From Prevotella sp. (GTDB lineage: Bacteria > Bacteroidota > Bacteroidia > Bacteroidales > Bacteroidaceae): a DNA stretch of 64,000 bases. Shown piece by piece: positions 24,449-60,550 of this stretch. Below the pieces are notes generated by a model, which worked only from the letters and a program-made list of their open reading frames with translations, ran no database searches and was not told the origin of the DNA. The position numbers and the translations under genes were made by a program. Every line of letters begins with the position of its first letter. Positions within the stretch are counted from its first letter, which is position 1. The DNA lies in contig JAFTFX010000013.1 of assembly GCA_017458225.1 (NCBI GenBank), positions 80,073-144,072 of the forward strand. The letters run 5' to 3'.

Positions 24449-24602
24449 CTCCGAACGTCCCGGAGTAATTCTCCAAACGTCTCGGAGTAAAACTCCAAAT
24501 GTCCCGGAGTAATTCTCCGAATGTCCCGTAGTAAAACTCCAAACGTCGCGTAGTGTTACTCCGGAAGTCCCGTGGTGTTACTCCGTGTGAAGTTTCCTGC
24601 CA
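24449..24602. repeat. tandem array, seven 22-bp units, overlapping helicase 3' end
   Basis: CTCC-starting units begin at 24449, 24471, 24493, 24515, 24537, 24559 and 24581, an exact 22-bp period. Most units contain an inverted pair CTCC/GGAG around a TCCCG core. The array fills the aroA-helicase gap and supplies the last codons and stop of the helicase gene. Confidence 0.9.
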
Positions 24603-27600
24603 CATAGCGGTCGAGACCGACGCGAACGAAACTGTCACGACTGCGCAGATAGTCGAGCAACTGGCTGAACACCTTGTCGGCAGCCAGCAACTCATCGTTG
24701 CCGAACAGCAGCAGATGCTCGCGTGCACGGGTCATGGCCACGTTCAGCTTACGGTCAATCAAGTGGCCGTTCTCCTCGAACACATGGTCGGTGAGGAAGC
24801 GCAGTTGGTAGTATTGCTGAATGGTGAAGCCATAGATGATGTAGTCACGCTGACTGCCCTGGAACCGTTCCACGGTGTCGACGGTAACTGCCTGCAGGTC
24901 GGGTATGCCGTAGGATTCAAAAGCCTGTCGGACGGCAGCTATCTGATTGCGGTAGGGAACAATCACGCCCACGGTCTGTGCCGCTGAGAAGTGGTCTCTG
25001 TTCAGTTCGTAAATTCTTGCAACGGTTGCGGCAATCGCCTCGGCCTCGTTCTGGTTCACCTTGTCAGACGGGCTCTCTGCAGGCGCAGCTATCGACACAA
25101 AGACCATGCGACGGGTCTGCAGCAGGTCGTCAATGCCGTTTGTGCCTGTGGCTTTCGCCGTCAGGGCTCGCTGCTGGTGGGAACAAGGCACCTCGGTGAG
25201 CCGCCCTTCATAGAAAGCATGGTTGGGGAAGTCGGCTATATCGTGGTGCATGCGGCCCTGACGGGTCAGCATGTAGACGATGTGCTCGTCGGTGCGATAG
25301 GCCTTCAGCAGGCGTTCGAACAGCGACAGCCTGCAGTCGGTCAGTCCGATGCCCTGCAGCAACTCGTCGTCCACCCGTGAGTCATTAGCATCTTGCTGTA
25401 CCACGGCCGGCAACTGTTTATGGTCGCCGATGAGCACCAGTTTGCGGATAGCCGACTGTTCTGCCGATGTTGTGGCACTCATCAGTGTCATCAGGTGGGG
25501 TTCCAGAATCTGCGATGCCTCGTCGATGACGGCCAAGTCGAACTGTTTGATGCGGAAGAGCGACGCTGCCGAACTGAGGGCTGTCGTCGTTCCAACGAAG
25601 ACACGAGTCTGCTGGATGGTCTGCCGCAGACTGTCCACATGGGGGCAGTCGGCGGCTTTCGTCTCCAGCAGGTAGGGCACGTACTCTTTCTCGCAGGAAT
25701 AGCGGCCTCCTATCCGGATGAAGTCGAGACCCTGTTCCACCAGCTTGCTGCAAATCTCGTCGACAGCCCTGTTGGTATAGGCCATCAGCAGCACCGACGA
25801 ATCGGGCTCGCACAGTTCTTCTTGCAGGGTGGTCATCAGTCCAAACGAGGTCTTTCCCGTGCCTGGAGGGCCTATAATCAAGAACAGATCGCGGGCTTGC
25901 TTCACGCGCAACGCCAGCTGGTTGAACGCTCCATAATCGCCACGCAGCGTGAGCGACTCGTCATAGCAGGGCCGGCGCTGCAGCATGAGCAGGTCGCGCC
26001 GTGCCTGGGGGGCCGACAGGAAAGCATGCATGCCCCGATAGAGCGCGGTGAACGACGACTCAAAGAAGTCGTGCTCGATGGCCCAACGGCAGTCTTTCTG
26101 ATACCAGAACACATGCACATCGGCCTGCATGGCCCGCAGATTCAAAACGATGCGCCCCTCGGCAATATCTTCCACCGTGCAGCGGAACACCATCGTCCGA
26201 CGGGCATCGGGCTCGCTACCCTCCTCGTAGGGATAGAGCACCACGATGTCGCCCTTGCGAAAGTTGGCCACATCGTTGTCGGGACGCGACGGCAACCGAA
26301 GTTCCAGTCGGCTCACCTTCCCGTGATCGGTCTCCTTCGGCGAGACCATTTCCAGATCGCAAAAGATATTGCCTGCCTGCAATTTCACGTCGAGCTGACT
26401 GTACCACTTGTCGGCAAAGCCAGAGTTCTCCTTGGTCTGCGTACCCACCTTTGCCAACAGGTGCTCGGTCTCAATGAAGGTAAGAAAGCGCAGATAATAG
26501 GCTCGCTCCAAGGGCGTTGCCTGATGGATGGGCTGCAGCAGTTCCTCTATCTGCGGTCGCTGGTAGACATTCCAGAGCACGCCGCCGCTCTTGTTCGTAT
26601 TCAGACTGTCGGCCGTCAACTGTTCCAGCACATGGATGCCGCCTCGCGAAAAGTTGTATTCGTTGGCAACGATGCCGTTTCTCACCTGCAAGGCCTTGTA
26701 GACCAGCTGGGGCGCATAGCCCTGACTGATCAGGCCGTTCTTATAGCGCGAATAGAGCAGGAAAGACGACAAGCCGAAGTTGTTTTTCTCGAACTGCGCC
26801 CGATAGTTGTAGCGCAACAACACGCTGTACAACAGCATCTGCACGTAGTGCTTCTCCTGTACGACGGGTGTATCGGGATCCTGTTGCGGATAGCCGCCCT
26901 TCCCTGATTTCTGCTCAATCAGGATTTTCTGATCCAGCTGCAGGAAGTCCATACGTCCCTGCAGACCCAGCATTTCCGAGAAGAACGAGGGCTCCACCAT
27001 GACGTTCCGGGGGGTGAAGTCGGACACGTGTTTCCTGAGCCCTTCGCGCAATGCATGCCGAATGTTCAGCTGCTGATTCTGGGCCTGCTGGTGGAAATCG
27101 CGGTCCAGCGGTGTGGTCAGCAGGGCCAGTCCGTTGTTGCGGAAGAAGGTCTTAATGCTGTCGGCGTAGGTCTGCTGTTCCTCCATCTGGCAGAGTTCCT
27201 CATCGAGAAACTGACTGGCCAGATTTCCCAGCACGATGGCCGATGTCTGCACAGCCGGTTTCAACTTGTTCAGCAGGTGAAGCCAAGGGGAGACAGTAAA
27301 CGACTCGAAGCAGGCGGCCACAGCCGAGATATCAACCAGATAGTCGGGTTCGTAGATGACAAGCTCCGGATAGGCCACGCCCTCTACTATACGGGGATGG
27401 ATCAGGTTCAACTGGCTTCCCTTTGCAAGCAGGGGCATCAGGTATAGCCAATCCCAGTCGTAGGGCGTATGTTCGTTTTTTTCCAGGCAGACGGTCATAT
27501 TCTCTGCACCTTCCTGATCGGCTCTTACGTGAACACGGGTACCCTCTATGCCGTCAACGACCACGCGCAGATAGTCTACGGTAGGTTGTGCAGCCGACCG

Positions 27601-27993
27601 TCTCTCTTCTTCAGGAAAGAACGCCTCCAGCAGTGAAGGGACAGGAGCCTCATAGACCAACTGTACAAACAGGCAGAGGGCCTTGAAATCATAGAGCCGC
27701 CACTGCCGCAACTCTTCGGCATCCAGCTGCGACGACTTGCGGAACCGCACACGGGCATCATTGACGATGCGCTGCAGATGGCGGTCGGCACGATGCTCTC
27801 TGAGCAGATACTCCGTTTTGGCAAAAGGGCCGCCGAAGCGAATGCCCTGAAAAGCCGTCTGCTGATCCAGACAACGCAGGAACATACGGTTCATCAGCCG
27901 ATAGGCCTTGCGCACATCGGACGTGTTGCTCACCACTTTCTGCAACTCTTCATAAAGATGGGTTTCCTCGGTCTCGTTGGGTCTCATCAACAT
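24556..27993 (-). CDS. Dna2-like nuclease-helicase (SF1, PD-(D/E)XK plus AAA)
   Basis: A 1145-aa fusion of a Cas4/RecB-like nuclease and a superfamily 1 helicase. The nuclease motif GRMDFLQLD followed by LIEQKSGKG lies near residues 345-370. The helicase has Walker A GPPGTGKTS near residue 711, Walker B VIDEAS near 820, GDHKQLPAV, a motif around VDTVERFQGSQRDY and VAMTRAREHLLLFG as motif VI. The order matches Dna2-type enzymes, likely acting in DNA repair or processing of blocked forks. The last ten or so residues (SNTTGLPE) are encoded by the 22-bp repeat array, so its C-terminus probably changes with repeat number. Confidence 0.86.
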   Translation of the reverse strand: MLMRPNETEETHLYEELQKVVSNTSDVRKAYRLMNRMFLRCLDQQTAFQGIRFGGPFAKTEYLLREHRADRHLQRIVNDARVRFRKSSQLDAEELRQWRLYDFKALCLFVQLVYEAPVPSLLEAFFPEEERRSAAQPTVDYLRVVVDGIEGTRVHVRADQEGAENMTVCLEKNEHTPYDWDWLYLMPLLAKGSQLNLIHPRIVEGVAYPELVIYEPDYLVDISAVAACFESFTVSPWLHLLNKLKPAVQTSAIVLGNLASQFLDEELCQMEEQQTYADSIKTFFRNNGLALLTTPLDRDFHQQAQNQQLNIRHALREGLRKHVSDFTPRNVMVEPSFFSEMLGLQGRMDFLQLDQKILIEQKSGKGGYPQQDPDTPVVQEKHYVQMLLYSVLLRYNYRAQFEKNNFGLSSFLLYSRYKNGLISQGYAPQLVYKALQVRNGIVANEYNFSRGGIHVLEQLTADSLNTNKSGGVLWNVYQRPQIEELLQPIHQATPLERAYYLRFLTFIETEHLLAKVGTQTKENSGFADKWYSQLDVKLQAGNIFCDLEMVSPKETDHGKVSRLELRLPSRPDNDVANFRKGDIVVLYPYEEGSEPDARRTMVFRCTVEDIAEGRIVLNLRAMQADVHVFWYQKDCRWAIEHDFFESSFTALYRGMHAFLSAPQARRDLLMLQRRPCYDESLTLRGDYGAFNQLALRVKQARDLFLIIGPPGTGKTSFGLMTTLQEELCEPDSSVLLMAYTNRAVDEICSKLVEQGLDFIRIGGRYSCEKEYVPYLLETKAADCPHVDSLRQTIQQTRVFVGTTTALSSAASLFRIKQFDLAVIDEASQILEPHLMTLMSATTSAEQSAIRKLVLIGDHKQLPAVVQQDANDSRVDDELLQGIGLTDCRLSLFERLLKAYRTDEHIVYMLTRQGRMHHDIADFPNHAFYEGRLTEVPCSHQQRALTAKATGTNGIDDLLQTRRMVFVSIAAPAESPSDKVNQNEAEAIAATVARIYELNRDHFSAAQTVGVIVPYRNQIAAVRQAFESYGIPDLQAVTVDTVERFQGSQRDYIIYGFTIQQYYQLRFLTDHVFEENGHLIDRKLNVAMTRAREHLLLFGNDELLAADKVFSQLLDYLRSRDSFVRVGLDRYVAGNFTRSNTTGLPE

Positions 27994-28077
27994 CTTTTCT
28001 TTGTATCTCTAACGGGAGAAGAGAGGCCTTTATTGTGCAATTTGTGGTTAACCGCTCCACGATTTTCCGCTATTTAT

Positions 28078-28108
28078 TTTGTACTGTCTGCAAATTGTTG
28101 TACCTTTG
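28078..28108 (+). promoter_or_regulatory. purL promoter
   Basis: TTTG at 28078-28081, a 19-bp spacer and TACCTTTG at 28101-28108, about 42 bp upstream of the purL start; divergent from the helicase gene. Confidence 0.72.
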
Positions 28109-28150
28109 TGCCCAGAATTATAAACTATTAAATAAGGTATTAAGATTATT

Positions 28151-31100
28151 ATGATTCTTTTCTTCAAGACTCCACAAAAGAGCGTGATAGCCACCGAGGT
28201 GGACCATCAGCTCTGCAAGCAGGAAATCGATGAACTTTGTTGGCTTTATGGCGGTGCCACGCTGTGCCAGGACGAGCAGCTCGAAGGATTCTTCGTGGGT
28301 CCTCGCCGTGAAATGGTCACCCCCTGGTCGACAAATGCCGTTGAGATTACACAGAACATGAGCCTCAGCGGCATTTCGCGTATTGAGGAATACTGGGCTG
28401 TTGAAAACGAGAATGCCGAACACGACCCCATGCTACAGCGCATGTACAAAGGTCTCGACCAGAGCATCTTCACCATCAACATCCAGCCCGAGCCCATCAA
28501 GCATGTGGAGAACCTGGAGGAATACAACGAACAGGAAGGACTGGCACTCTCGCCCGAGGAGATTGAATACCTGCACGGACTGGAGAAGCAGAACGGACGA
28601 CCGCTGACCGACTCAGAGATCTTCGGCTTCGCACAGATCAACTCGGAGCACTGCCGCCACAAAATCTTCGGCGGAACCTTCATCATCGACGGACAGGAGA
28701 TGGAGTCATCGCTCTTCCAGATGATTAAGAAGACCACACAGGAGAATCCCAACAAGATTCTATCAGCCTATAAGGACAACGTAGCCTTTGCACAAGGCCC
28801 CGTCGTAGAGCAGTTTGCCCCCAAGGACCAGTCCACAGCCGACTGGTTCCAAGTAAAGGACATCGAGAGCGTTATCTCGCTGAAAGCTGAGACCCACAAC
28901 TTCCCCACCACCGTGGAACCCTTCAACGGCGCTGCCACCGGTACAGGCGGCGAAATCCGCGACCGCATGGGCGGCGGCACCGGCTCATGGCCCATCGCTG
29001 GAACCGCTGTCTACATGACCGCCTATCCAAGATTAAGTGAGGTCAATGAAACTTATGAGGCCAATGAGGCCAATGAGCCCCATAAGCCCCATCTCCGCGA
29101 CTGGGAAGATATCCTCCCCGTTCGCCAGTGGCTGTACCAGACCCCAGAACAGATTCTGATCAAGGCATCTAACGGTGCCAGCGACTTCGGCAATAAGTTC
29201 GGCCAGCCCCTCATCTGCGGCTCCGTTCTCACTTTCGAGCATCAGGAAACCTCTCCCGACCTCCCCGAAGGGGAGGAGTGCCTTGCGGGGGCTGATTGTG
29301 CCAACCACTCCTCCCCTTTGGGGAGGCAGGGAGGGGTCAAATACGCCTACGACAAGGTTATCATGCTTGCCGGCGGTGTGGGCTACGGAACCAAGCGTGA
29401 CTGTCTGAAGAAAGAGCCACAGCCCGGCAACAAAGTGGTGGTGGTAGGCGGCGACAACTACCGCATCGGACTGGGCGGCGGCAGTGTGTCGTCGGTCGAC
29501 ACGGGTCGCTATTCCAACGGCATCGAGCTGAACGCCGTGCAGCGTGCCAACCCCGAAATGCAGAAACGTGCCTACAATCTGGTGCGAGCACTCTGCGAGG
29601 AAGACGTGAACCCCGTCGTCTCTATCCACGACCACGGCTCCGCAGGCCACCTGAACTGTCTCTCTGAGCTCGTCGAAGACTGCGGCGGCGAGATCGACAT
29701 GACCAAGCTGCCCATCGGCGACAAGACGCTCTCTTCAAAAGAAATCATCGCCAACGAGAGCCAAGAGCGCATGGGCCTGCTCATCGACGAGAAGCACATC
29801 GAGCATGTGCGCCGCATTGCCGAACGCGAACGCGCCCCGATGTATGTCGTCGGCGAGACCACAGGCGATGCCCACTTCTCGTTCAAGCAGGACGACGGCG
29901 TGAAGCCCTTCGACCTCGATGTCGCACAGATGTTCGGCCACTCGCCCAAGACCATCATGCGCGACAACACCGTGGAGCGCCACTATGCCCCAGTGAAATA
30001 TGCCAAGCCTTCTGAATACTCAGATAACTCTGAATACTCCGAAAAAATCCATGAATACCTGGAGCGCGTGCTCCAGCTCGAAGCCGTCGCCTGCAAAGAC
30101 TGGCTCACCAATAAGGTCGACCGCTCTGTCACCGGCAAGATTGCCCGTCAGCAGTGCCAGGGCGAAATACAGTTGCCACTCAGCGACTGCGGTGTCGTAG
30201 CACTCGACTATCGTGGTCAGAAGGGTATCGCAACTGCCATCGGTCATGCTCCGCAGGCAGGTCTGGCATCGCCCGAGGCTGGCTCGGTTCTCTCTGTAGC
30301 CGAGGCCCTCACGAATATTGTCTGGGCACCACTCGCCGACGGCATGGATTCCCTCTCCCTCTCAGCCAACTGGATGTGGCCCTGTCGCTCACAGGAAGGC
30401 GAAGATGCACGTCTCTATGCCGCCGTCAAGGCACTCAGCGACTTCTGCTGCGACCTGCATATCAACGTGCCAACCGGCAAAGACTCACTCTCGCTGAGTC
30501 AACAGTATCCCAACGGTGAGAAAATTATTTCGCCGGGAACAGTCATCGTCTCTGCCGGTGGCGAGGTCAGCGACATCAAGAAAGTCGTATCACCCGTACT
30601 CGTCAACGACAAAAATGCTTCGCTCTATCACATCGACTTCTCGTTCGACCAGCAGCGCCTCGGCGGCTCAGCCTTTGCACAGAGTCTGGGCAAGGTGGGC
30701 GACGACGTGCCCACTGTGAAGAATGCCGAATATTTTGCCGATGCTTTCATGGCCATTCAGGAACTCATCAACCGCGGATGGATCATGGCTGGTCACGACA
30801 TCTCTGCCGGCGGACTCATCACCACACTCCTTGAAATGTGCTTCGCCAACACCAAGGGCGGCATGCATATCAACCTGCACGACCTGTGCCAAGATGGCGA
30901 CATCGTGAAAGCGCTCTTCGCTGAGAATCCTGGTGTCGTCATACAGGTCAGCGACCAGCATAAACAGGAATTCCGCGACTTCATGGAAGAAAACGGCATT
31001 GGCTATGCCAAAATCGGCTATCCCGTAGAGGGCAGCCGCACCATCGAGGTTGTTTATCCCAGCCATACTAGCAACACTAGTATATCTAGTACTACTAGTC

Positions 31101-32128
31101 CAACTAGTTCTACTAGCTCTATTATCTTCGACATCGACCACCTGCGCGATGTATGGTACAAGACCAGCTACCTGCTCGACCGCAAGCAGAGCTTCAACGG
31201 CAAGGCTGCTGAACGTTTCGAGAACTACAAGCAGCAACCGCTGGAGATGAAATTCCCCAAAGGCTTCACCGGCACGCTGGCCCAATACGGTCTCACCCCC
31301 CGGAGGGCTCTGAATACTCAGAATACTCTGAATAATCTGAATAATCAGACTACTCAGAACCATCAGAATACTCCGACTGCCCCCAAGGCTGCCATCATCC
31401 GCGAGAAGGGCACGAACGGCGAACGCGAAATGGCCTACTCCATGTATCTCGCAGGCTTCGACGTAAAAGACGTGATGATGACCGACCTCATCAGTGGTCG
31501 CGAGACCCTCGAAGACGTGAACTTCATCGTCTTCTGCGGTGGCTTCTCCAACAGCGACGTGCTGGGCTCGGCCAAGGGATGGGCTGGTGCCTTTCTCTTT
31601 AATCCTAAGGCCAAGCAGGCTCTCGACAACTTCTATGCACGCAAGGACACACTCTCCCTCGGCATCTGCAACGGCTGCCAGCTGATGGTGGAACTCGGTC
31701 TTACGGGTGCTAAGGGCGCTAAGATGCTGCATAATGACAGCCACAAGTTCGAGAGCGAGTTCATCACCCTGCAGATTCCGCAGAACAACAGCGTGATGTT
31801 CGGCTCGCTCAGCGGCACAAAACTCGGCCTCTGGGTGGCTCACGGCGAAGGCAAATTCTCACTGCCCGAGGCAGAGAGTGCCTACAACGTCATTGCCAAG
31901 TACAACTACCACGGCTACCCCGCCAACCCCAACGGTTCCAACTACGACGTGGCTGGCATCTGCTCGGCTGACGGTCGCCACCTGTGCATGATGCCCCATC
32001 TGGAGCGAGCCATCTTCCCCTGGCAGAACGCATGGTATCCTGCCAACCGCCGCAACGATGAGGTGACGCCTTGGATTGAGGCCTTTGTCAATGCACGCAA
32101 GTGGGTAGAGGCAGTACAGAGCGTTTAG
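28151..32128 (+). CDS. purL: phosphoribosylformylglycinamidine synthase
   Basis: Large single-chain FGAM synthase of 1325 aa (purine synthesis, ATP- and glutamine-dependent). It has the N-terminal PurS-like part, NSEHCRHKIF and KAETHNFPTTVEPFNGAATGTGGEIRDR in the first ATP/FGAR domain, the second half around AGHDISAGGLITTLLEM, and a C-terminal class I glutaminase with nucleophile C1173 in LGICNGCQ and the His in VAHGEGK. Five low-complexity or palindromic stretches interrupt the coding sequence in frame (about residues 297-314, 367-395, 621-632, 972-989 and 1054-1077); all lie between conserved blocks, so activity is probably kept. The protein is only slightly longer than the E. coli enzyme. 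Confidence 0.95.
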   Translation: MILFFKTPQKSVIATEVDHQLCKQEIDELCWLYGGATLCQDEQLEGFFVGPRREMVTPWSTNAVEITQNMSLSGISRIEEYWAVENENAEHDPMLQRMYKGLDQSIFTINIQPEPIKHVENLEEYNEQEGLALSPEEIEYLHGLEKQNGRPLTDSEIFGFAQINSEHCRHKIFGGTFIIDGQEMESSLFQMIKKTTQENPNKILSAYKDNVAFAQGPVVEQFAPKDQSTADWFQVKDIESVISLKAETHNFPTTVEPFNGAATGTGGEIRDRMGGGTGSWPIAGTAVYMTAYPRLSEVNETYEANEANEPHKPHLRDWEDILPVRQWLYQTPEQILIKASNGASDFGNKFGQPLICGSVLTFEHQETSPDLPEGEECLAGADCANHSSPLGRQGGVKYAYDKVIMLAGGVGYGTKRDCLKKEPQPGNKVVVVGGDNYRIGLGGGSVSSVDTGRYSNGIELNAVQRANPEMQKRAYNLVRALCEEDVNPVVSIHDHGSAGHLNCLSELVEDCGGEIDMTKLPIGDKTLSSKEIIANESQERMGLLIDEKHIEHVRRIAERERAPMYVVGETTGDAHFSFKQDDGVKPFDLDVAQMFGHSPKTIMRDNTVERHYAPVKYAKPSEYSDNSEYSEKIHEYLERVLQLEAVACKDWLTNKVDRSVTGKIARQQCQGEIQLPLSDCGVVALDYRGQKGIATAIGHAPQAGLASPEAGSVLSVAEALTNIVWAPLADGMDSLSLSANWMWPCRSQEGEDARLYAAVKALSDFCCDLHINVPTGKDSLSLSQQYPNGEKIISPGTVIVSAGGEVSDIKKVVSPVLVNDKNASLYHIDFSFDQQRLGGSAFAQSLGKVGDDVPTVKNAEYFADAFMAIQELINRGWIMAGHDISAGGLITTLLEMCFANTKGGMHINLHDLCQDGDIVKALFAENPGVVIQVSDQHKQEFRDFMEENGIGYAKIGYPVEGSRTIEVVYPSHTSNTSISSTTSPTSSTSSIIFDIDHLRDVWYKTSYLLDRKQSFNGKAAERFENYKQQPLEMKFPKGFTGTLAQYGLTPRRALNTQNTLNNLNNQTTQNHQNTPTAPKAAIIREKGTNGEREMAYSMYLAGFDVKDVMMTDLISGRETLEDVNFIVFCGGFSNSDVLGSAKGWAGAFLFNPKAKQALDNFYARKDTLSLGICNGCQLMVELGLTGAKGAKMLHNDSHKFESEFITLQIPQNNSVMFGSLSGTKLGLWVAHGEGKFSLPEAESAYNVIAKYNYHGYPANPNGSNYDVAGICSADGRHLCMMPHLERAIFPWQNAWYPANRRNDEVTPWIEAFVNARKWVEAVQSV
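29039..29092 (+). repeat. 9-bp-period array in purL (unit type GAGGCCAAT)
   Basis: Six 9-bp units, two of them exactly GAGGCCAAT, in frame with purL; they encode an E-x-N/E-x-x pattern at residues 297-314. Confidence 0.85.
29250..29336. repeat. palindromic element inserted in frame in purL
   Basis: Imperfect inverted arms of 31 bp (29250-29280 and 29306-29336, 27 of 31 paired) around a 25-bp centre. Each arm has an inner hairpin of the type CCTCCCC/GGGGAGG. The 87-bp span is 29 codons and stays in frame. Related in sequence to the elements at 17020 and 40179. Confidence 0.87.
30011..30046 (+). repeat. 9-bp-period array in purL (unit type TCTGAATAC)
   Basis: Four 9-bp units with TCTGAATAC at 30011 and 30029; encodes S-E-Y type triplets at residues 621-632. 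Confidence 0.78.
31064..31117 (+). repeat. 9-bp-period array in purL (core ACTAGT)
   Basis: Six 9-bp units of the form NNN ACT AGY, one of them with TCT for ACT; encodes a Ser/Thr-rich stretch at residues 972-989 between the second catalytic half and the glutaminase domain. Confidence 0.87.
31310..31381 (+). repeat. 9-bp-period array in purL (unit type CAGAATACT)
   Basis: Eight 9-bp units related to CTGAATACT or CAGAATACT; encodes an Asn/Gln/Thr-rich stretch at residues 1054-1077 just before the glutaminase domain. Confidence 0.87.
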
Positions 32129-32137
32129 CCCACCGTC

Positions 32138-33220: not shown

Positions 33221-33228
33221 ACGGCTGA

Positions 33229-33260
33229 TTTTGGACAATCAAACTGCCAATTTTGGACAA
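33229..33260 (+). promoter_or_regulatory. candidate AraC-type operator, two direct repeats 22 bp apart
   Basis: TTTTGGACAA at 33229-33238 and again at 33251-33260, on the same face of the helix, between the regulator gene and the fimbrial operon promoter. Confidence 0.55.
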
Positions 33261-45688: not shown

Positions 45689-45816
45689 TTAACGTCAAAT
45701 TCTGCTGTAATTAACGTCAAATTCCGCTCTGTTTAACGTCAAATCTCGCTGTGATTAATATTGAATTAGAGCGAAACTTGACGTTAAACAGAGCGGAATT
45801 TGACGTTAATTACAGC
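45689..45816. repeat. 22-bp-period array folding into a 39-bp perfect inverted repeat
   Basis: TTAACGTCAAAT-type units start at 45689, 45711, 45733 and (degenerate) 45755; inverted units GACGTTAA lie at 45780 and 45802, again 22 bp apart. Arms 45704-45742 and 45778-45816 are perfectly complementary over 39 bp around a 35-nt loop. The 368-bp gap 45474-45841 otherwise holds the promoter at 45525 and a lone forward TATCTTTG at 45627. Confidence 0.9.
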
Positions 45817-52487: not shown

Positions 52488-52544
52488 GTAATAAATAACG
52501 CAGAAGGCAACCGTTTTATTGTATCAAGCCTTCCGTTGATTCTT

Positions 52545-53345: not shown

Positions 53346-53398
53346 ACTAGTTATACTAGAGTTACTAGAGATACTAGGGATACTAGAAATACTAGCCC
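53336..53398. repeat. 9-bp-period array across the pflA start
   Basis: Seven units beginning TACTAG with three variable bases. The pflA ATG and the next codons lie in the first two units; the rest fills the pflB-pflA gap. Same core as the array at 31064-31117 in purL. Confidence 0.9.
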
Positions 53399-53404
53399 CC
53401 CCAA

Positions 53405-55651
53405 TTACAGGCTCTCGTGTGCCTGACGGGCAATCACGTCTTCCTGCTGTTCACGAGTCAAGTCGATGAACTTCACGGCATAGCCACTCACACGGATGGT
53501 GAAGTTGGCATACTCCGGCTTTTCGGGATGCTCCATCGCATCGCGCAGCTTGTCGACACCAAAGACGTTCACGTTCAGGTGGTGGGCACCCTTGGTGAAA
53601 TAGCCGTCCATGACACGTACCAATGTCTGGGCGCGTTCCTCGTCGTTGTGGCCCAGCGTGTTGGGGCTGATAGTCTGAGTGTTCGAGATACCGTCGAGGG
53701 CATACTCGTAAGGAATCTTGGCCACTGAGTTAAGCGAAGCCAGCAGGCCGTTCTTCTCAGCACCGTAGCTGGGGTTAGCACCCGGTGAGAGCGGTGTGCC
53801 GGCACGGCGACCGTCGGGCAGGTTGCCCGTGTACTTACCATAAACCACATTTGAAGTAATAGTAAGGATAGAAGTGGTAGGCTCCGAGTCACGATAGGTG
53901 TGGTGGCGCTTGATCTTGGCCAAGAAGGTCTTCAGCACCCAGACGGCCACCTCGTCGGCACGGTCGTCATCGTTTCCGTAACGGGGGAAGTCGCCCTCCA
54001 CCTGATAGTCTACATTGAAACCTGTCTCATCGCGGATAATCTTCACTTTAGCGTACTTCACAGCACAGATAGAGTCGACCACATGCGAGAAGCCGGCAAT
54101 ACCCGTAGCGAAGGTGCGGCGCACGTCGGTATCAATGAGGGCCATCTCGGCAGCCTCATAGAAGTACTTGTCGTGCATGTAGTGAATCAGGTTCAGCGTG
54201 TTCACATAGATATCGGCCAGCCAGTCCAGCATATCGCGGAAACGGGGTTCCAGTTCTTCCCATGTCAGATACTCGCTGGTGATGGGACGGAACTTCGGTC
54301 CACACTGTTCGCGGGTCTTGGCATCCACACCGCCGTTGATGGCATAGAGCAACGTCTTGGCCATATTGGCACGGGCGCCGAAGAACTGCATTTCCTTACC
54401 GGTCTGAGTGGCGCTGACGCAGCAGCAGATGCTGTAGTCGTCGCCCCAGATGGGACGCATCACATCGTCATTCTCATACTGAATAGAGCTGGTCTTCACC
54501 GAGATCATAGCTGCATAGTGCTTGAAGGTCTCGGGCAGACGGGGCGAATAGAGCACGGTGAGGTTGGGTTCAGGCGACGGGCCCATGTTCTCCAGTGTGT
54601 GCAGGAAGCGGTAGCAGTTCTTGGTCACCATGTGACGACCGTCCTGTCCCAGGCCGCCCACCTCGAGGGTTGCCCATACGGGGTCGCCGCTGAATATTTC
54701 ATTATAAGAAGGTATGCGCGCGAACTTCACCATGCGGAACTTCATCACCAAGTGGTCGATGAGCTCCTGAGCCTCGCTCTCGGTGAGTGTTCCCTCCTGC
54801 ATGTCGCGAGTGATATAGATGTCGAGGAAAGTTGACACACGGCCTACAGACATGGCGGCACCGTTCTGTGTCTTGATGGCAGCCAGATAGCCGAAGTAAA
54901 GCCACTGCACGGCCTCACGGGCGTTCTGGGCAGGCTGAGAAATATCGAAGCCATAGATCTTGGCCATCTCCTTCATTTCCTTCAGGGCCTTGATCTGCAT
55001 GGAGATCTCCTCGCGCAGACGAATGATGTCTTCGCTCATCTGACGCTTGCCGCAGTTGTATTTGTCAATTTCCTTCTGTTCAATGAGGAAGTCGATGCCA
55101 TAAAGGGCCACACGACGATAGTCGCCCACGATACGGCCACGGCCGTAGGTATCGGGCAGACCCGTCAGAATATGGTTGTGGCGCACACGCTTCATCTCGT
55201 CAGTGTAGGCATCGAATACGCCCTCGTTGTGGGTCTTACAGTATTTCGAGAAAATCTCGTGCAGTTTCTCACTGGGTTGATAGCCGTAGGTGGTGCAGGC
55301 CTGCTCGGCCATCTTGATACCGCCGTAAGGCATGAAAGCACGCTTCAGGGGCTTGTCGGTCTGCAGACCAACCACTTTCTCCAGGTCTTTCAGTTTCTCG
55401 TCAATGAATCCGGGACCGTAGGCCGTCATGCTGGAAACAATTTCCGTCTCCATGTCGAGCACACCACCCTTGGCACGCTCTTCCTTCTGCAACTCCTGCA
55501 GCCGTCCCCACAATTTGTTGGTTGATTCGGTCGGACCAGTCAAGAACGACTCATCGCCATCGTAAGCCGTGTAGTTGTTCTGAATAAAGTCTCTCACGTT
55601 GACCTCATCGGTCCATTTGGTTCCTTTAAAACCACGCCATTCGTTTCGCAT
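53405..55651 (-). CDS. pflB: formate acetyltransferase (pyruvate formate-lyase)
   Basis: Glycyl-radical enzyme of 748 aa that splits pyruvate into formate and acetyl-CoA under anaerobic conditions. The catalytic cysteine pair is C410-C411 in [15 protein letters not shown], and the radical glycine is G723 in RVSGYAVKF near the C-terminus. [19 protein letters not shown] is also a family motif. It has its own promoter (55692-55722) and is followed by pflA. Confidence 0.97.
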
Positions 55652-55691
55652 AAATATAACTTAAAAATACGTTGTTATTCTTTTTCGGGTG

Positions 55692-55722
55692 CAAAGGTAC
55701 AACTTTTCTATCTATTATGCAA
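55692..55722 (-). promoter_or_regulatory. pflB promoter
   Basis: On the minus strand TTG (55720-55722), 20-bp spacer, TACCTTTG (55692-55699), about 41 bp before the start. Confidence 0.7.
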
Positions 55723-55751
55723 TACTTTATAATAAGTATCTAATCACAATT

Positions 55752-56345
55752 TCACCATTTCTTATTTTCATCACATCTGATTGTGAGAACCTGCTTACCT
55801 GCCTGCATGCGGAATTCGCCAGCCTCAAGCAGCCAATGCCCGTCTGTGTCGACAAAAGCGAGATTGCGGGCAGGAATGGTTAGTGTGACGGTCTCCATGC
55901 CACCTGGCGGCAGCAGGGCTGTCTTATGGAATGCGCGCAAACGTCGGTTCTCGGGAACCAGACTGGCCACTAAGTCACGTGAGAAAAGCATGACGGCCTC
56001 ACGCCCAGCACGACTGCCGGTATTCTTCACATCAATGGTGAATGTCAGCTGATCATCGGGGCCGAATGTATCCTTGTCAACGTGAAAATTATCATATTCA
56101 AAAGATGTATAGCTCAAACCGTAACCGAAAGGCCACAGTACGGATACTACGGCATCATAGTCATAGGCACCCTCCATGCGATTGGTCTCTTCGCTGACGC
56201 GATAGTCGTAAGTAGTCAGTTCGGCTTGATGGCGCGGATAGGTATAGGGCATGCGAGCCGAGAAATTGGCATCGCCAGCCAACAGGCGAGCCAAGGCATC
56301 GCCACAGGGCCGGGTGTGTTGAGCACCGAGCCCACCTTGTAGACA
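55752..56345 (-). pseudogene. C-terminal remnant of a glycoside hydrolase family 3 gene
   Basis: About 200 codons match only the C-terminal end of GH3 enzymes: GDALARLLAGDANFSARMPYTYP, PFGYGLSYTSFEYDN and the fibronectin-III-like end (VKNTGSRAGREAVMLFSRD). The catalytic N-terminal domain is missing. Just upstream the family sequence continues (IEAIAVYK) in another frame, so there is also a frameshift near 56325, and no further GH3 sequence follows. The gene is degraded; no start supported. Confidence 0.83.
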
Positions 56346-56437
56346 GCGATGGCCTCAATTACACGAAGCGATAAACTAATAAAAGTTAAACATTATGCTT
56401 TACTGTTTAGCTGCAGTTGAAAGTTTTGCCGCTATTC

Positions 56438-56469
56438 TTTGCAGATATCGTGGATAATTGCTACCTTTG
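56438..56469 (+). promoter_or_regulatory. promoter of the 56502 gene
   Basis: TTTG at 56438-56441, 20-bp spacer, TACCTTTG at 56462-56469, 32 bp before the start. Confidence 0.72.
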
Positions 56470-56501
56470 TCCTATCATAACGTCAAAACCGCTATACTAC
56501 G

Positions 56502-57053
56502 ATGGCACTCCGAGGAACGATAGTCGCATCTTGCGTTGAACGGATGAAATATCCGTTTGTATGGCTGAGCCGCATCCACCGCTGTTTGGGCTTTGGCATA
56601 CAGTCGCCCACCGATTATCAGTTCGTGCGTGGTGTGGTGAACGAGCATACACCATATTATATATATAGTGAGGTTGGGCAGGGCGACGACTGGCTGCACC
56701 AGCGTTTAGGACGGCTCTATTTCCGCCTGTCCAACTGGCGGCAACCGCAGACCATCTTCTCACGCAACTATCAGGAATACCTGCAGGCAGGCTGTAGGAA
56801 GGTCAGAATGGTAGAACAACCCGACCAAGCGGCGCAACTGGCCATCATTGGAACAGAAGCAGATTTGCGAGCACTTCTTCCCCTGTGCATTGACGGGACA
56901 GTGCTGGTGATAGACCGTCTCTTTTGCCATCGCCCACTATGGCAGCTGTTGCTGAATGAACCGAGACCCATGCTGACCTACGATCTTTACTACTGCGGCA
57001 TTGCCATCTTCGACTCCAAGCGAACAACACAGCACTATCTTGTGAATTTCTAA
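56502..57053 (+). CDS. short conserved Bacteroidetes protein, methyltransferase-like remnant
   Basis: A 183-aa protein without signal peptide. The start RIHRCLGFGIQSPTDYQFVRGVVNE resembles the N-terminal of a Bacteroidetes family of putative SAM-dependent methyltransferases, which carry a GFGIHSP segment. The SAM-binding glycine-rich loop is not seen in the rest, so it may be non-catalytic. An alternative ATG lies at 56544. It has its own promoter and is followed after 26 bp by the adenosyltransferase gene. Confidence 0.65.
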   Translation: MALRGTIVASCVERMKYPFVWLSRIHRCLGFGIQSPTDYQFVRGVVNEHTPYYIYSEVGQGDDWLHQRLGRLYFRLSNWRQPQTIFSRNYQEYLQAGCRKVRMVEQPDQAAQLAIIGTEADLRALLPLCIDGTVLVIDRLFCHRPLWQLLLNEPRPMLTYDLYYCGIAIFDSKRTTQHYLVNF

Positions 57054-57079
57054 CCTTTTAATACCCCTTTACTACCCTA

Positions 57080-57640
57080 ATGACAAAAGTATATACACGA
57101 CGCGGCGACAAGGGCCAGACCGACCTGATAGGCGGTGTGCGCATCAGTAAGGCCGACAAACGTCTGGAGGCCTATGGCACCATCGACGAACTCAGTTCCC
57201 ATCTGGGCCTTTTGGCAGCCATGCTTCCCGATGACGAGACAACCCAGAAGTATATTTTCCGAATCCAGGACACCCTTTTCAACGTGGGATGCCATCTGGC
57301 CACCGATCAGAGCCAGACACCCCTCAGCCCGGCAGCTCGTCTGCCCGAAGGCGAAGTGCAACATTTGGAGCAATGCATCGATGACATGACGGCAGAACTG
57401 CCCGTTGCACGTGGCTTTGTGTTGCCCAGTGGCTGTCAGGCGGCAGCCCAGGCCCATGTGTGCCGCACCGTTTGTCGCCGTGCTGAACGTCGCATCACCG
57501 CCTTGTCGGCAGAAGTCGCCGTCGACCCTAAAGTAGAGCAATACGTGAACAGGTTGAGCGACTATCTGTTCATTTTGGCAAAAAAAATAAACTTTAACAA
57601 AGGCATCGATGAAATTCTGTGGCAAAATGCTTGCAGATAA
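57080..57640 (+). CDS. ATP:cob(I)alamin adenosyltransferase, PduO type
   Basis: A 186-aa enzyme that makes adenosylcobalamin. The ATP site is in TKVYTRRGDKGQTDLIGG, followed by RLEAYGTIDELSSHLGLL and the C-terminal CRTVCRRAERRI. Residues at these three sites match active PduO-type enzymes. It provides cofactor for B12-dependent enzymes such as methylmalonyl-CoA mutase (family knowledge; none is in this window). Probably cotranscribed with the preceding gene. Confidence 0.93.
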   Translation: MTKVYTRRGDKGQTDLIGGVRISKADKRLEAYGTIDELSSHLGLLAAMLPDDETTQKYIFRIQDTLFNVGCHLATDQSQTPLSPAARLPEGEVQHLEQCIDDMTAELPVARGFVLPSGCQAAAQAHVCRTVCRRAERRITALSAEVAVDPKVEQYVNRLSDYLFILAKKINFNKGIDEILWQNACR

Positions 57641-57660
57641 GAAATTATTTGTTACTTTTG
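57631..57660 (+). promoter_or_regulatory. promoter of the DUF2795 gene
   Basis: TTG at 57631-57633, 19-bp spacer, TACTTTTG at 57653-57660, about 65 bp before the start; the -33 element lies in the last codons of the previous gene. Confidence 0.6.
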
Positions 57661-57724
57661 CGCCTCAAATAAACAAAACGCTATTTTGGAATAATAACAA
57701 CCAAACTAAAATAATTTAACGACT

Positions 57725-57946
57725 ATGTATTGGACACTTGAATTAGCATCGAAACTGGAAGATGCTCCCTGGCCTGCTACCAAGGAGGAACTCATAGATT
57801 ATGCAATCCGTTCTGGCGCACCGCTCGAAGTGCTTGAGAACCTTCAAGAAATCGAAGACGAAGGCGATGTCTACGACAGCATTGAAGACATCTGGCCCGA
57901 CTATCCCACCAAGGAAGACTTCCTGTTCAACGAGGATGAGTATTAA
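57725..57946 (+). CDS. DUF2795 small acidic protein
   Basis: A 73-aa protein that starts MYWTLELASKLEDAPWPATK and has ELIDYAIRSGAPLEVLENLQ, matching the DUF2795 family. Its C-terminal half is acidic (EIEDEGDVYDSIEDIWPDYP). It is often a stand-alone gene in Bacteroidetes. Own promoter and a strong terminator-like hairpin behind it show a single-gene unit. Confidence 0.82.
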   Translation: MYWTLELASKLEDAPWPATKEELIDYAIRSGAPLEVLENLQEIEDEGDVYDSIEDIWPDYPTKEDFLFNEDEY

Positions 57947-57974
57947 GACTCAGTTCTGAGTTATTGCACTATTA

Positions 57975-58015
57975 ATCAGCGAGATAAACATCAAAAGTTT
58001 GTTTGTCTCGCTGAT
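57975..58015 (+). terminator. terminator hairpin after the DUF2795 gene
   Basis: A 15-bp stem (57975-57989 with 58001-58015, one G-T pair) and 11-nt loop, followed by ATTTT. The T run is short but the stem is strong. Confidence 0.65.
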
Positions 58016-58054
58016 ATTTTCGAATCCTCTATACTATAATAATAGAAAAAGTTG

Positions 58055-58062
58055 TAAATTTG
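58055..58062 (+). promoter_or_regulatory. -7 element of the AlbA_2 gene
   Basis: TAAATTTG, 23 bp before the start codon; the -33 element is not clear. Confidence 0.5.
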
Positions 58063-58084
58063 CGCCTAAGTTCATAAAGAGAAA

Positions 58085-59497
58085 ATGACACCAGATAAGT
58101 TAAAGGCAATAATTGCCCAGAAAGAGGGTACAGAGATAGAGTTCAAGGAGTCGAAAGACAACTTGGCTCGTAAAGTCTATGATTCCATCTGTGCATTTCT
58201 GAATCGCAGAGGTGGGCATGTGGTATTAGGTGCAAAGGATAATGGAGATATTGTTGGCATCAACCCAGCCAAAGTTCAGGAACAGATAGATCAACTTGCA
58301 AAGGATATGAACAACCCTCAGTTGTTTAAGCCGACCTATTATCTGACTTATGAACCTATGGATATAGATGGGAAGAAAATCATCTATTTCTATGTTCCTG
58401 AGAGTAACCAGGCTCACAGCTATAAGGGAATCTATTACGACCGTAATCAGGATGGTGACTTTGAACTGCGTAGTACCGAGCAGATTGCCAATCTGTTTAT
58501 CCGTAAGAGTAAGATGAAGACCGAGGATAGGGTATATCCGATGTTAGGGATGAAGGATCTCGATGAAGAAGCCTTCGAGGAACTGAGAAGAGGCATTCGT
58601 ATTGAAAACTCAAACCATCCTTGGCTGAATCTGTCAAATGAGGAAATCATACGCTCAGGTGAGCTAATAGCCGTTGATCCCGAGACAGGCAAAGAAGGAC
58701 TGACACTGGCTGCAATCCTGTTGTTCGGCAATAGTCATGCTATTGCTACAGCTTTGCCGACATATAGAATCGATCTCTTGTGTCGTGTAAACGATACAGA
58801 GTTATATGATGACAGGGAACTTCTGAGTTGTAATCTACTGAAAGCCTATCCGATTATGATGGACTTTATTAAAAAGCATCTACCAGAGCAACCCTATATT
58901 GAGGGAATACAGAGATTCAGCCTTCGTGACAGGATTTTGAGAGAGGTTGTCCTAAACCTTATCATTCACCGTGAGTACGGCAGTGCTTATCCGACGACAT
59001 TTACTATTTATCGTGACCGCATTGTTACAGAGAACTGGAATATTCCGTATGTCTATGGTCCTATCAATCTACAGACGATGCGTCCACATCGTAAGAACCC
59101 AAAGATTGCCAATGTGTTCTCTCAGATGGGTATCGTTGAAGAACTAGGTAGTGGTATGAGGAAGATGTTCAAATACACACCACTCTACGCCAATGGTAAG
59201 GAACCTATCATAGAAGAGCAGGATGTTTATCGTATAGAGATTCCTTATGTTCCCACTATACAGGGTAGTGACGTTGATACTACACAGAAAAGTACACAGA
59301 AAAGTACACAGAAAAGTACACAGAAAATACTTGATTTGATTCGAGTTAATCCATATGTAACGACTCAGGAAATGGCAGATTCTATTGGTATTATTCGCAG
59401 AACTGTCGCAAAACATATTAAGTCCCTACAAGAGAGAGGCATAATCAAACGTATTGGTCCAGACAAAGGTGGGCATTGGGAAGTCGTTGAAGATTAA
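58085..59497 (+). CDS. AlbA_2/Schlafen-domain ATP-binding transcriptional regulator
   Basis: A 470-aa protein with three parts. The N-terminal AlbA_2 domain (about residues 10-130) has GTEIEFKESKDN and FLNRRGGHVVLGAKDNG. A GHKL-like ATPase region (about 270-390) contains REVVLNLIIHREYG and SQMGIVEELGSGMRKMF. A C-terminal winged helix-turn-helix (EMADSIGIIRRTVAKHIKSLQERGIIKRIG) follows. A linker of four TQKS units encoded by a 12-bp repeat (about 59282-59330) separates ATPase and DNA-binding parts. The region has lower GC than the neighbours and lies next to an Abi gene, which suggests acquired defence or regulatory DNA. Confidence 0.87.
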   Translation: MTPDKLKAIIAQKEGTEIEFKESKDNLARKVYDSICAFLNRRGGHVVLGAKDNGDIVGINPAKVQEQIDQLAKDMNNPQLFKPTYYLTYEPMDIDGKKIIYFYVPESNQAHSYKGIYYDRNQDGDFELRSTEQIANLFIRKSKMKTEDRVYPMLGMKDLDEEAFEELRRGIRIENSNHPWLNLSNEEIIRSGELIAVDPETGKEGLTLAAILLFGNSHAIATALPTYRIDLLCRVNDTELYDDRELLSCNLLKAYPIMMDFIKKHLPEQPYIEGIQRFSLRDRILREVVLNLIIHREYGSAYPTTFTIYRDRIVTENWNIPYVYGPINLQTMRPHRKNPKIANVFSQMGIVEELGSGMRKMFKYTPLYANGKEPIIEEQDVYRIEIPYVPTIQGSDVDTTQKSTQKSTQKSTQKILDLIRVNPYVTTQEMADSIGIIRRTVAKHIKSLQERGIIKRIGPDKGGHWEVVED

Positions 59498-59562
59498 AAT
59501 TGAAGAAGCAACCTGTGCAATAAATGCACAAGATCACCAGTTTAGGATATTTGGTCAAAGCA

Positions 59563-59595
59563 AACTGTTCGGGATTTCCGAACAGTTCCATTTTC
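59563..59595 (+). terminator. terminator hairpin after the AlbA_2 gene
   Basis: A 10-bp perfect stem AACTGTTCGG/CCGAACAGTT (59563-59572, 59578-59587) with a 5-nt loop, followed by CCATTTT. Confidence 0.55.
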
Positions 59596-59656
59596 TGATG
59601 TTGCTGAAGCCGATAAAGTAGTGGGCGACATCAGTAAATATTCATAGGAAACTGCT

Positions 59657-59755
59657 GCTGGAAACAACGATGTTTTGTACCGCAACTGCATATGGTTTGT
59701 ACCGCAATCAACGCTGTTTTGTACCGCAACTGCATGTAGTTTGTACCGCAATCAA
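59657..59755. repeat. 99-bp direct repeat, left copy, 22-bp period
   Basis: Starts GCTGGAAACAACGAT, then TTTGTACCGCAA units at 59674, 59696, 59718 and 59740 (22-bp period, alternating in two types). The same sequence recurs at 60394-60492 on the other side of the Abi gene. The rest of 59498-59656 holds only the terminator. Confidence 0.88.
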
Positions 59756-59799
59756 GACTCTATACTTTAGTAATCGAAATGTATTTTTAGCTATAAAAG

Positions 59800-59831
59800 T
59801 TTGGATATTTGGAAATAAATGTCTACCTTTG
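59800..59831 (+). promoter_or_regulatory. promoter of the abiF RNA and Abi_2 gene
   Basis: TTTG at 59800-59803, 20-bp spacer, TACCTTTG at 59824-59831. Confidence 0.7.
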
Positions 59832-59837
59832 CAGCAA

Positions 59838-59892
59838 CAGTTCCCGCCACGCCTCTTAACAATGCGTACCACGGCGGGACTTCGTCATTTTT
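59838..59892 (+). ncRNA. candidate abiF RNA upstream of Abi_2 gene
   Basis: Between the promoter and the start codon of the Abi_2 gene lies a structured leader: CCCGCC (59843-59848) pairs with GGCGGG (59873-59878) around a loop, followed by ACTTCG and a T run at 59888-59892. Position and form match the abiF RNA motif described upstream of AbiF/AbiD-type genes. A covariance-model search would decide. Confidence 0.55.
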
Positions 59893-59898
59893 ATAGGT

Positions 59899-60321
59899 AT
59901 GAGATACAACAAACAACCCATAGACATTCCGGATCAGTTGACTTTGCTAAAGCAACGGGGAATGATAGTCAATAACGAGGCTGCTGCTCTTAGACAATTG
60001 GAGTCTATCAACTATTTCCGATTGGCGAACTATTGGAAAGTCTTTGAGACAGATGATGTTACGCATCGGCTTGTTCCTGGTACTCAACTTGAAGATGTTA
60101 TTTCGTTATACGCATTTGACAAAGAACTGCGCTCTATCATTTTTACTGCCATACAAGATATAGAAGTCGCACTTAGGACAAGAATCATACACTTCTTCTC
60201 GTTGGCTCACGGTGCTTTCTGGTTTATGGATGCTGCCAAGTTCAATAGTCACAGTATCTTTCAGACTTGTCTTGACAACATTCAGACAGAACTTGACCGT
60301 TCAAAAGAAGAGTGCTTGTAA
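59899..60321 (+). pseudogene. Abi_2 (AbiD/AbiF-like) abortive infection gene, 3' truncated
   Basis: A 140-codon frame has the N-terminal half of Abi_2 proteins: RYNKQPIDIPDQLTLLKQRG, LRQLESINYFRLANYW, and the conserved FDKELRSIIFTAIQDIEVALRTRI with the R-x(4-6)-H type motif. Members are usually about 300 aa; here it stops at RSKEECL where the 22-bp array at 60314 begins. The C-terminal half with the second RxxxxH-like motif is missing, so it is probably inactive. The upstream promoter and structured leader are intact. Confidence 0.8.
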
Positions 60322-60393
60322 GCAGATGATCGTTTGCTTGTAACCGCATGGCCTTTTGCTTGTAAGCGAATGGCCTTTTGCTTGTAAGCAAAA
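60314..60393. repeat. 22-bp-period array truncating the Abi_2 gene
   Basis: GCTTGTAA units start at 60314, 60336, 60358 and 60380. The first unit supplies the last codon and stop of the Abi_2 frame. Most units carry the small palindrome GCTTGTAAGC. Confidence 0.88.
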
Positions 60394-60550
60394 GCTGGAA
60401 ACAACGATATTTTGTACCGCAACTGCATGCAGTTTGTACCGCAATCAACGCTGTTTTGTACCGCAACCGCATGCAGTTTGCACTGCAATCAAGGCCATTT
60501 TGTACTGCAACCGCATGCAGTTTGCACTGCAATCAAGGCCGTTTTATAAC
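60394..60550. repeat. 99-bp direct repeat, right copy, extended 22-bp array
   Basis: Starts GCTGGAAACAACGAT as the left copy, followed by TTTGTACCGCAA-type units at 60411, 60433, 60455, 60477, 60499 and 60521 and a partial unit at 60543. Alternating units form 44-bp pairs with CATGCAG cores. Confidence 0.9.

Follow-up and report, generated by a model that had tools for sequence, protein, structure and literature searches.

We propose that the 22-bp arrays of this gut Prevotella genome are rows of protein-binding sites, and the proteins that bind them are probably those of the HU-HIG (HU_rel) family, as we infer from sequence and gene placement. The arrays look like docking rows for HU-family proteins because many relatives' HU-family genes carry a row of their own sequence in front. 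The stretch analyzed, called the window here, covers 64,000 nt of the forward strand of Prevotella sp. (GCA_017458225.1, contig JAFTFX010000013.1, 80,073-144,072).

The original prediction described five arrays with an exact 22-bp period in the window, and we find all five in place with an exact 22-bp step. Array A (24439..24586, + strand) has 6-7 units, where seven had been counted, each with a GGAGT..ACTCC core and a linker. It runs over the stop codon of a helicase gene on the minus strand and has a second locus at L014:19284-19459. Array B (45689..45809, no strand assigned) had been described as four direct plus two inverted units; it shows three clear direct 22-bp units, a degenerate fourth, and then two inverted ones. 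Family B occupies 15 loci in 1.17 Mb of the same genome. Array C1 (59665..59755, +) carries TTTGTACCGCAA at a 22-bp step, and its 10-bp linkers alternate, giving a 44-bp superperiod. Its motif starts at 59674, 59696, 59718, and 59740, in agreement with the expected four units. Array D (60311..60398, +) likewise has the four 22-bp units predicted, with the core TTTGCTTnTAAGCAAA. Immediately 3′ of D lies array C2 (60395..60545, +), with six TTTG(T/C)AC(C/T)GCAA units at 22 bp and again a 44-bp superperiod; allowing up to two mismatches, six motif starts run from 60411 to 60521, consistent with the six to seven proposed. The statement that the units differ fully holds only in part, as C1 and C2 have a unit in common and the A, B, and D units recur at other loci. 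The window also holds a single array of the HU-linked families, an H21-family array at 7889..7954 (no strand assigned) with three units at a 21-bp step, the core AATTTATGCATAAATT, and a dyad p of 0.001.

The expected excess of the 22-bp period is borne out. In a sample of 773,681 bases, made of the window and stretches picked without regard to arrays, 22 bp was the commonest of the periods from 8 to 69, with 21 regions (3 of them inside the window) against none in block-shuffled sequence; the runner-up was 9 bp with 18 regions. Adding 10 stretches picked for E arrays and 10 others gave 1,166,207 bases of the genome, in which 40 arrays of period 22 were intergenic and none coding. The next intergenic periods were 44 (21 arrays), 9 (8), 18 (7), and 21 (6), and the 9-bp arrays were split into 8 intergenic and 14 coding. 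Contrary to the claim that the arrays lie outside genes, A and D are not strictly so, because each runs into the 3′ end of a reading frame. Gene calls in the survey came from a simple purpose-written script, retrained for the AT-rich genome G024. Oral Prevotella replicons, sampled in two stretches of 50 kb each (L303 and L304), showed no 22-bp array, and 140 kb of G016 had none at 22 bp, yet two at 44 bp and four at 66 bp. A literature search, with most subscription papers outside its coverage, returned no description of these arrays.

In several families, conserved cores stand on a fixed lattice. All 40 E arrays found in two species consist of three 19-bp cores at 0/22/44, and a scan with three mismatches allowed returned no single or paired cores. 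The unit number is four in 7/7 D loci and in 3/3 F loci, and three in 9 of 10 H21 loci; it varies more among loci in families A, B, and G, and G246 has only one E locus, with four units instead of three. In 22 E loci, initially located with an exact pattern, core columns carry 1.2-2.0 bits compared with 0.2-0.7 bits for spacer columns, and the wider scan shows variable core positions at 6, 10, and 14. The flanks of these loci are only weakly alike beyond 2-3 bases from the array and show weak symmetry across some 9 bases. In E and, by profile, in D, F, G, and H21, the step is constant, the cores are conserved, and the spacers are freer to vary; B and C stand outside this group.

Small palindromes had been noted in many units. 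Dyad tests agree for D (p 0.011), for C2 at 44 bp (0.009; 0.302 at 22 bp), and for A (0.043), but were not significant for B (0.505, 0.352) or C1 (0.619, 0.797). Overall, dyad units reach p≤0.05 in 59 of the 82 intergenic arrays with a 22-bp period. Of these 59, 26 come from G144 and are largely of family E, and 7 of the 47 G144 stretches were picked for holding E arrays. Dyads are not peculiar to 22-bp arrays, as 11/18 coding 18-bp and 8/16 coding 27-bp arrays reach the same threshold.

Comparing the two species, we find that the three E cores at the HU-HIG promoter common to both are identical, while the spacers and flanks have diverged. At a second common promoter, that of a pta-like gene, the E cores are kept and the changes fall only at family-variable positions. 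Such persistent cores amid diverged spacers and flanks are the expected look of a protein-binding array. The positions of E turn over. A locus was taken as testable when the sample from the other species contained a flanking gene with ≥55% identity; of the 18 such loci, two show E at the corresponding promoter, a third shows it at a distance of 0.9 kb, and 15 are without it. With E kept at the same promoter in two of 18 testable loci, a conserved E regulon was rejected. Empty-site comparison at E loci L096 and L117 met poorly alignable intergenic DNA in the other species and gave no clean insertion.

The link to HU-HIG genes comes from promoters. Genes beside E and H21 arrays belong to the HU-HIG/HU_rel family (Pfam PF18291, NCBIfam TIGR01201), matching PF18291 with 79.4 bits in L271 and 72.1 bits in L273 (cut-off 26.2). 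Those with E or H21 are one on contig C30 of this genome (E), its orthologue in G144 (E), and one on contig C37, where a second H21 array separates a promoter-like box from the start codon. In the 400 bp upstream of the gene, a 20-23-bp array was found for 15 of the 27 HU-HIG genes fetched and for 52 of the 1197 other genes (Fisher 2.5e-13), and a 22-bp array for 9/27 and 19/1197, respectively (Fisher 1.5e-9), values that ignore relatedness among the 27. The flag is lenient, asking for 21 identical bases out of 30 at the shift in question, and its background rate at 22 bp is higher in G000 and G144 (0.049 of upstream windows); HU-HIG genes from outside these two genomes were array-positive in 12 of 22 cases. 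None of 20 neighbor genes had such an upstream array. In five of the 15 positives, the array begins 13-29 bp after a TAnnTTTG box. The positives are not all clear palindromes: L289 shows a direct repeat of 20 bp, L294 and L295 have weak dyads, and the AT-rich L286 and L299 may be chance flags. The other 12 of the 27, including the gene on contig C11 of this genome, had no array at the threshold used, and neither did four weaker HU-like matches (L276-L279) left out of the 27. The HU-HIG search gave matches in 35 of 40 genomes at more than 100 places, from which only the best six non-G000 matches were taken; H9, H12, and H13 are the same places as H8, H6, and H7. Starts of unannotated HU-HIG genes were estimated from alignments, and a scan of the survey stretches yielded only three such genes.

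Both forward tests found the unit of an HU-HIG promoter elsewhere in its own genome and in none of five others. The G028 unit occurs as 38 tandem pairs in G028, three of which are that promoter, and was absent when reversed; the G029 unit occurs at five places in G029, one being that promoter.

In the mechanism we propose, a unit would combine a site, a 12-19-bp palindrome in most families, with filler, such that the total is kept at about two helical turns (22 bp, or 20, 21, or 23 bp in some families). With the total at about two turns, usually three or four bound dimers would line up next to one another on the same face of the DNA. Each family would have its own site sequence, and several would also have their own fixed unit number. 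The binders would be HU-HIG proteins, relatives of HU and IHF with several paralogues in many Prevotella genomes. An array at an HU-HIG gene's own promoter may be read as autoregulation, and a bound row of the same array elsewhere would regulate transcription or organize DNA locally. Families A, B, C, and D presumably have the same kind of partner. In the 75% complete assembly, we found no HU-HIG gene bearing an A, B, C, D, F, or G array, and Pfam recognized no HU or known DNA-binding regulator in a set of 10 genes that turn their 5′ ends toward B and D arrays; as no cognate gene was found for A-D, these are assigned by architecture alone.

Of the two origins first suggested for the arrays, a helix-phased protein structure is thus supported, by the fixed unit number of several families, the conserved cores with free spacers, the two-turn spacing, and the placement at HU-HIG promoters. 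The other, an undescribed repeat-forming process, fares poorly. Slippage is unlikely because the families recur at many loci, most with palindromic cores and variable spacers, and often with a fixed unit number. For A, B, and G, whose unit numbers are more variable, slippage is less firmly excluded. A related account is a minisatellite or MITE process that spreads units by copying, like BrickBuilt of Porphyromonas gingivalis, whose published description gives intergenic 23-bp tandem repeats at many loci of another Bacteroidales genome (PMC4596501). The Prevotella arrays resemble it in being intergenic, dispersed, and near in unit length, and the weak symmetry in the E flanks and the variable A, B, and G also speak for copying. 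By the same description, however, BrickBuilt has a leader and tail, inverted-repeat ends, and a presumed transposon origin, whereas the Prevotella arrays keep mainly cores and spacing. The E spacers were not copied along with the cores, the 22 E loci compared showed no strongly conserved ends of an element, and the unit number is constant in E, D, and F and nearly so in H21, which makes copying improbable. PINSR of Prevotella intermedia, compared by description, is likewise a lineage-specific intergenic repeat without terminal inverted repeats, but has a 188-bp unit and about 180 copies, about three quarters of its sites being common to two strains (PMC4755523). REP palindromes moved by a RAYT transposase are also short and extragenic with several families per genome (PMC3733652, PMC6006769), and our palindromes too lie close to gene ends. 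The Prevotella families have no common GTAG or CGTC tag and stand in tandem on a 22-bp lattice, and tandem dyads with variable spacers are unlike REP structure. The 75% complete genome offers one Y1 transposase-like gene (34.7 bits against the NCBIfam cut-off of 80) for about eight families, and no array was listed in L102, the stretch holding it; we regard a RAYT origin as highly improbable.

A more serious contender is another regulator family, with the arrays as its operators and the HU-HIG genes merely as frequent targets. HU-HIG binding is our deduction, and E also lies upstream of other genes, such as the pta-like gene in both species. On the other hand, arrays of unrelated sequence in Prevotella, Bacteroides, Phocaeicola, and phage contigs precede an HU-HIG gene, and a foreign regulator would need to alter its sequence in parallel with every one of these genes; we consider this reading unlikely, if still worth keeping in mind. 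Plasmid iterons and cooperative operator arrays are few-copy sites repeated every two helical turns, and the layout of F-type plasmid iterons is similar to the 19-bp core and 3-bp spacer of E. Chromosomal copies of iterons, for which the similar spacing of Rep_3 origins would speak, are nevertheless barely plausible: the arrays are dispersed on the chromosome with sequences that vary by family and species, the 75% complete genome gave no Rep_3 match, and the E, H21, and D pair patterns occur in no IMG/VR stretch. Elements acting at the 3′ end of the RNA, terminators for example, come to mind solely for A, B, D, F, and G, because these arrays lie near or over stop codons: a called 3′ end is no more than about 106 bp away in 12 of the 15 B loci, and some A, D, and F arrays overlap one. 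F units carry uncompensated changes inside the stem (judged by eye), and the same lattice recurs in E and H21 at HU-HIG promoters, and this account is very improbable as well. CRISPR was rejected: its spacers are tens of bases long, and those of E have 3 bases.

Returning to HU-HIG binding, the broader picture is tentative. Bacteroidota may possess a repertoire of sequence-specific HU paralogues, each with its own 22-bp-phased palindromic array, chromosome-wide and replaced by new sequences within a genus; we hold this to be possible but doubtful. If true, such a repertoire would mark the chromosome in a fast-evolving way, might help to distinguish self DNA from elements that enter the cell, and would have counterparts in phages with protein-array pairs of their own. 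HU proteins have been described chiefly as binders of weak specificity, which counts against the proposal, and are taken as general DNA packers; one branch would gain defined targets. The HU_rel expansion in Bacteroidota is reportedly predicted to be aimed at mobile elements (by Burroughs et al. in 2017). No published recognition sites or arrays for HU-HIG/HU_rel were found in our literature search. An array in front of an HU-HIG gene would name its site, the genome could then be searched for all other sites, and the role of the expanded HU-HIG proteins would become directly testable. This would also explain how one repeat length with unrelated sequences recurs across genera of an order.

In the window, an abiF RNA lies between C1 and D (59843..59879, +; Rfam RF03085, 49.4 bits against a gathering score of 37). 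It is followed by an Abi_2 gene (59899..60321, +; 140 aa) whose frame ends inside array D. The two form an abiF RNA-AbiF module (59843-60321), in which the gene covers profile positions 2-111 of 184. D arrays often lie at a GC step, and arrays as cargo boundaries were considered.

All five arrays of the window were found with the exact 22-bp step that the original prediction had described (A, 24439-24586; B, 45689-45809; C1, 59665-59755; D, 60311-60398; C2, 60395-60545). At 7889-7954 lies a sixth, similarly built array that steps at 21 bp (family H21). Performing an autocorrelation scan on 773,681 bases of the source assembly (G000, 75% complete), made up of the window and stretches picked without regard to arrays, we found the predicted excess: 21 regions at period 22, the top among periods 8-69. 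The same scan on block-shuffled DNA gave 0 regions at this period. In 1,166,207 bases of G000, including 10 stretches chosen for holding arrays of a further 22-bp family (E), the 22-bp regions were 40 intergenic and 0 coding; 9-bp arrays were 14 coding and 8 intergenic. A second species (G144) showed 27 intergenic and 0 coding 22-bp regions in 933,820 bases, where 7 of the 47 stretches were selected by E. At 80 named Prevotella-type loci (1.5 Mb), period 22 gave 11 intergenic and 0 coding regions and was outnumbered between genes by periods 7 (22), 21 (14) and 14 (12). Three 22-bp arrays were present in 120 kb of genome G024, none in 140 kb of G016, one in 381,197 bases from 20 more Bacteroidales genomes (one per genus) and none in two pieces, 50 kb each, from oral Prevotella replicons. 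From these period counts, therefore, the 22-bp habit is strong in the source lineage and elsewhere present but thinner. The nearest named PriA relatives of G000 are uncultured Prevotella, many of them ruminant-derived. Intergenic arrays of periods 7, 14, 21 and 28 were common in the stretches from other Prevotella-type genomes (L131-L210).

The units had been held to be unrelated. They are not single events, and families recur at several loci of the 1.17-Mb G000 sample: 2 for A, 15 for B, 7 for D, 14 for E, 10 for H21, and 3 and 2 for F and G. The family scan of this sample did not recover C, which is known from the window and from short stretches beside D arrays. C-type motifs (<=2 mismatches) lie close on one side of 7/7 D arrays (L057, L062, L069, L101, L109, L110 and window 60311). 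The palindromic character proposed for the units survived in part. Most consist of a palindrome plus filler. Among the window arrays, A and D passed the dyad test, as did C2 when read at 44 bp, and B and C1 failed it. The dyad beats shuffled columns in 59 of 82 intergenic 22-bp arrays (p<=0.05), and dyads at this level also occur in some coding 18- and 27-bp arrays.

Several families, namely E, D, F and H21, have a characteristic number of units. We counted three units in 40/40 E arrays of two species, with core starts at offsets 0, 22 and 44 without exception, four in 7/7 D and 3/3 F arrays, and three in 9/10 H21 arrays; the number varies more in A, B and G. The single E locus of genome G246, on a 5.6-kb contig, is exceptional in having four units, and we guess that this contig may be a binning error. 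The 19-bp E cores are conserved, changing chiefly at positions 6, 10 and 14, and the 3-bp spacers are nearly free. Among the 26 E triplets of G144 (e.g. L228, L226), a count by eye gave 7 that are palindromic throughout, unit 3 being the reverse complement of unit 1 and unit 2 a dyad. Composite arrays at L094:281-419 and L096:9974-10167 join E to a second, different type of 22-bp unit, the two sharing one register in L094 by a by-eye count. F and G arrays at L012:2035 and L065:19060 lie near MNT-type nucleotidyltransferase-like genes, recognised by eye.

Comparing G000 with G144, we find E kept at two common promoters while its spacers and the surrounding bases diverged. The cores are identical at the promoter of an HU-type gene; at the other, belonging to a gene judged pta-like by eye, core changes are confined to family-variable positions. 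Among 18 comparable E loci, 2 have E at the same promoter, 1 has it 0.9 kb off and 15 are without it. Judged by the two kept promoters and this 18-locus comparison, E sites look selected in place, yet their positions turn over. The E motif pair occurs in 3 of 398 genus genomes (forward matches: 30 in G000, 107 in G144, 3 in G246), and its reversed control gave 0 matches.

The HU-type gene adjoining E is a member of the HU/IHF-related HU_rel/HU-HIG family. Burroughs et al. are said to have reported in 2017 that HU-HIG is expanded in Bacteroidota and to have suggested a role against mobile elements. A second HU-HIG paralogue of G000, on contig C37, carries an H21 array between its start codon and a TACCTTTG box, which we take to be the Bacteroidota -7 element. 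Arrays stood at these two G000 HU-HIG genes, and we therefore checked other HU-HIG genes for arrays of their own, reading 400 bp upstream of each gene that could be fetched. A 22-bp array was present upstream in 4/6 Prevotella homologues, against 0.0174 of 1036 other-gene upstream windows (binomial 1.3e-6, relatedness ignored); this background is higher, 0.049, in G000 and G144. The set grew to 27 HU-HIG genes with named records from Bacteroidales and Treponema, two phage records and a pair of IMG/VR contigs. An array of 20-23 bp lay upstream of 15/27 of them versus 52/1197 other genes (Fisher 2.5e-13), and one of exactly 22 bp upstream of 9/27 versus 19/1197 (Fisher 1.5e-9). Leaving out G000 and G144, 12/22 HU-HIG genes carry an array. 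Other genes of the same records had one in 0/20 cases, and four weaker HU-like hits excluded from the 27 were likewise without one. Twelve of the 27 were without an array even at the loose threshold used, and the arrays of some of the 15 positives are not clear palindromes. In 5 of these 15, a TAnnTTTG box precedes the array start by 13-29 bp, a repressor-like position. Most promoter units show no sequence relation to one another. Bacteroides finegoldii, for instance, has TGACACCCGGGTGTCA (23 bp), Phocaeicola massiliensis has GGACGTACGTCC (22 bp) and CTCCATAACTTTTGGAG (21 bp), and genome G029 has AAAACAGNNTGTTTT (22 bp). In phage or viral contigs (L302:1029-1109, L294, L295), too, an array lies upstream of an HU-HIG-type gene; that of MT837725.1 is AGGTAGCTACC three times at 23 bp.

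If a promoter array names the site of its protein, the same unit is expected elsewhere in that genome. Both promoter units tested, from G028 and G029, behaved in this way. The G028 unit forms 38 tandem pairs in its own genome, 3 of these at the HU-HIG promoter, and 0 in five other genomes and in the reversed control. G029 holds its own unit at 5 places, one being the HU-HIG promoter, and the five other genomes have none. The outer letters of the G028 core, ACAATGTTATTAACTTTGT, are common to E, as a related protein would lead one to expect.

As the most likely mechanism, we propose that three or four HU-HIG dimers would sit on adjacent palindromes two helical turns apart, a spacing that would put them on one DNA face, able to touch. 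Such a row at the protein's own gene would repress or tune transcription, and at other loci it would serve in regulation or organise the DNA locally. The arrays are very likely bound by a protein of some kind. For E, H21 and the arrays beside other HU-HIG genes, HU-HIG is a reasonably probable binder. For the window arrays A-D it is a tentative candidate, because none of the A-D loci seen in the incomplete G000 assembly adjoins an HU-HIG gene and Pfam matched no known DNA-binding regulator among 10 genes that face arrays of B or D.

Among published repeats the closest are BrickBuilt (PMC4596501), PINSR (PMC4755523) and REPs (PMC3733652, PMC6006769). A defining feature of BrickBuilt fails in the present arrays, as does one of REPs; PINSR was set beside them by its description. 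A P. gingivalis HU protein is reported to have been studied with inverted-repeat region DNA (PMC3969353). In the literature searched, the present arrays are undescribed, and likewise any tie to HU-HIG genes. Inside the sole Y1 transposase-like gene found (L075:1252-2532, 426 aa) there is a T/E/N/G-rich repeat insert.

In the window, an abiF RNA (RF03085) and an Abi_2 gene (59843-60321) sit between C1 and D-C2, with a copy of array C on either side. The Abi_2 gene covers only positions 2-111 of the 184-position profile, and its frame terminates within array D. Adjoining this module, in low-GC surroundings, a gene at 58085-59497 shows SLFN_AlbA_2 and HATPase matches and contains a 12-bp tandem repeat at 59281-59327. 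GC content often shifts at D arrays, several of which mark a step from host-like to low-GC DNA, and their neighbours resemble, by eye, HsdM and nuclease genes.
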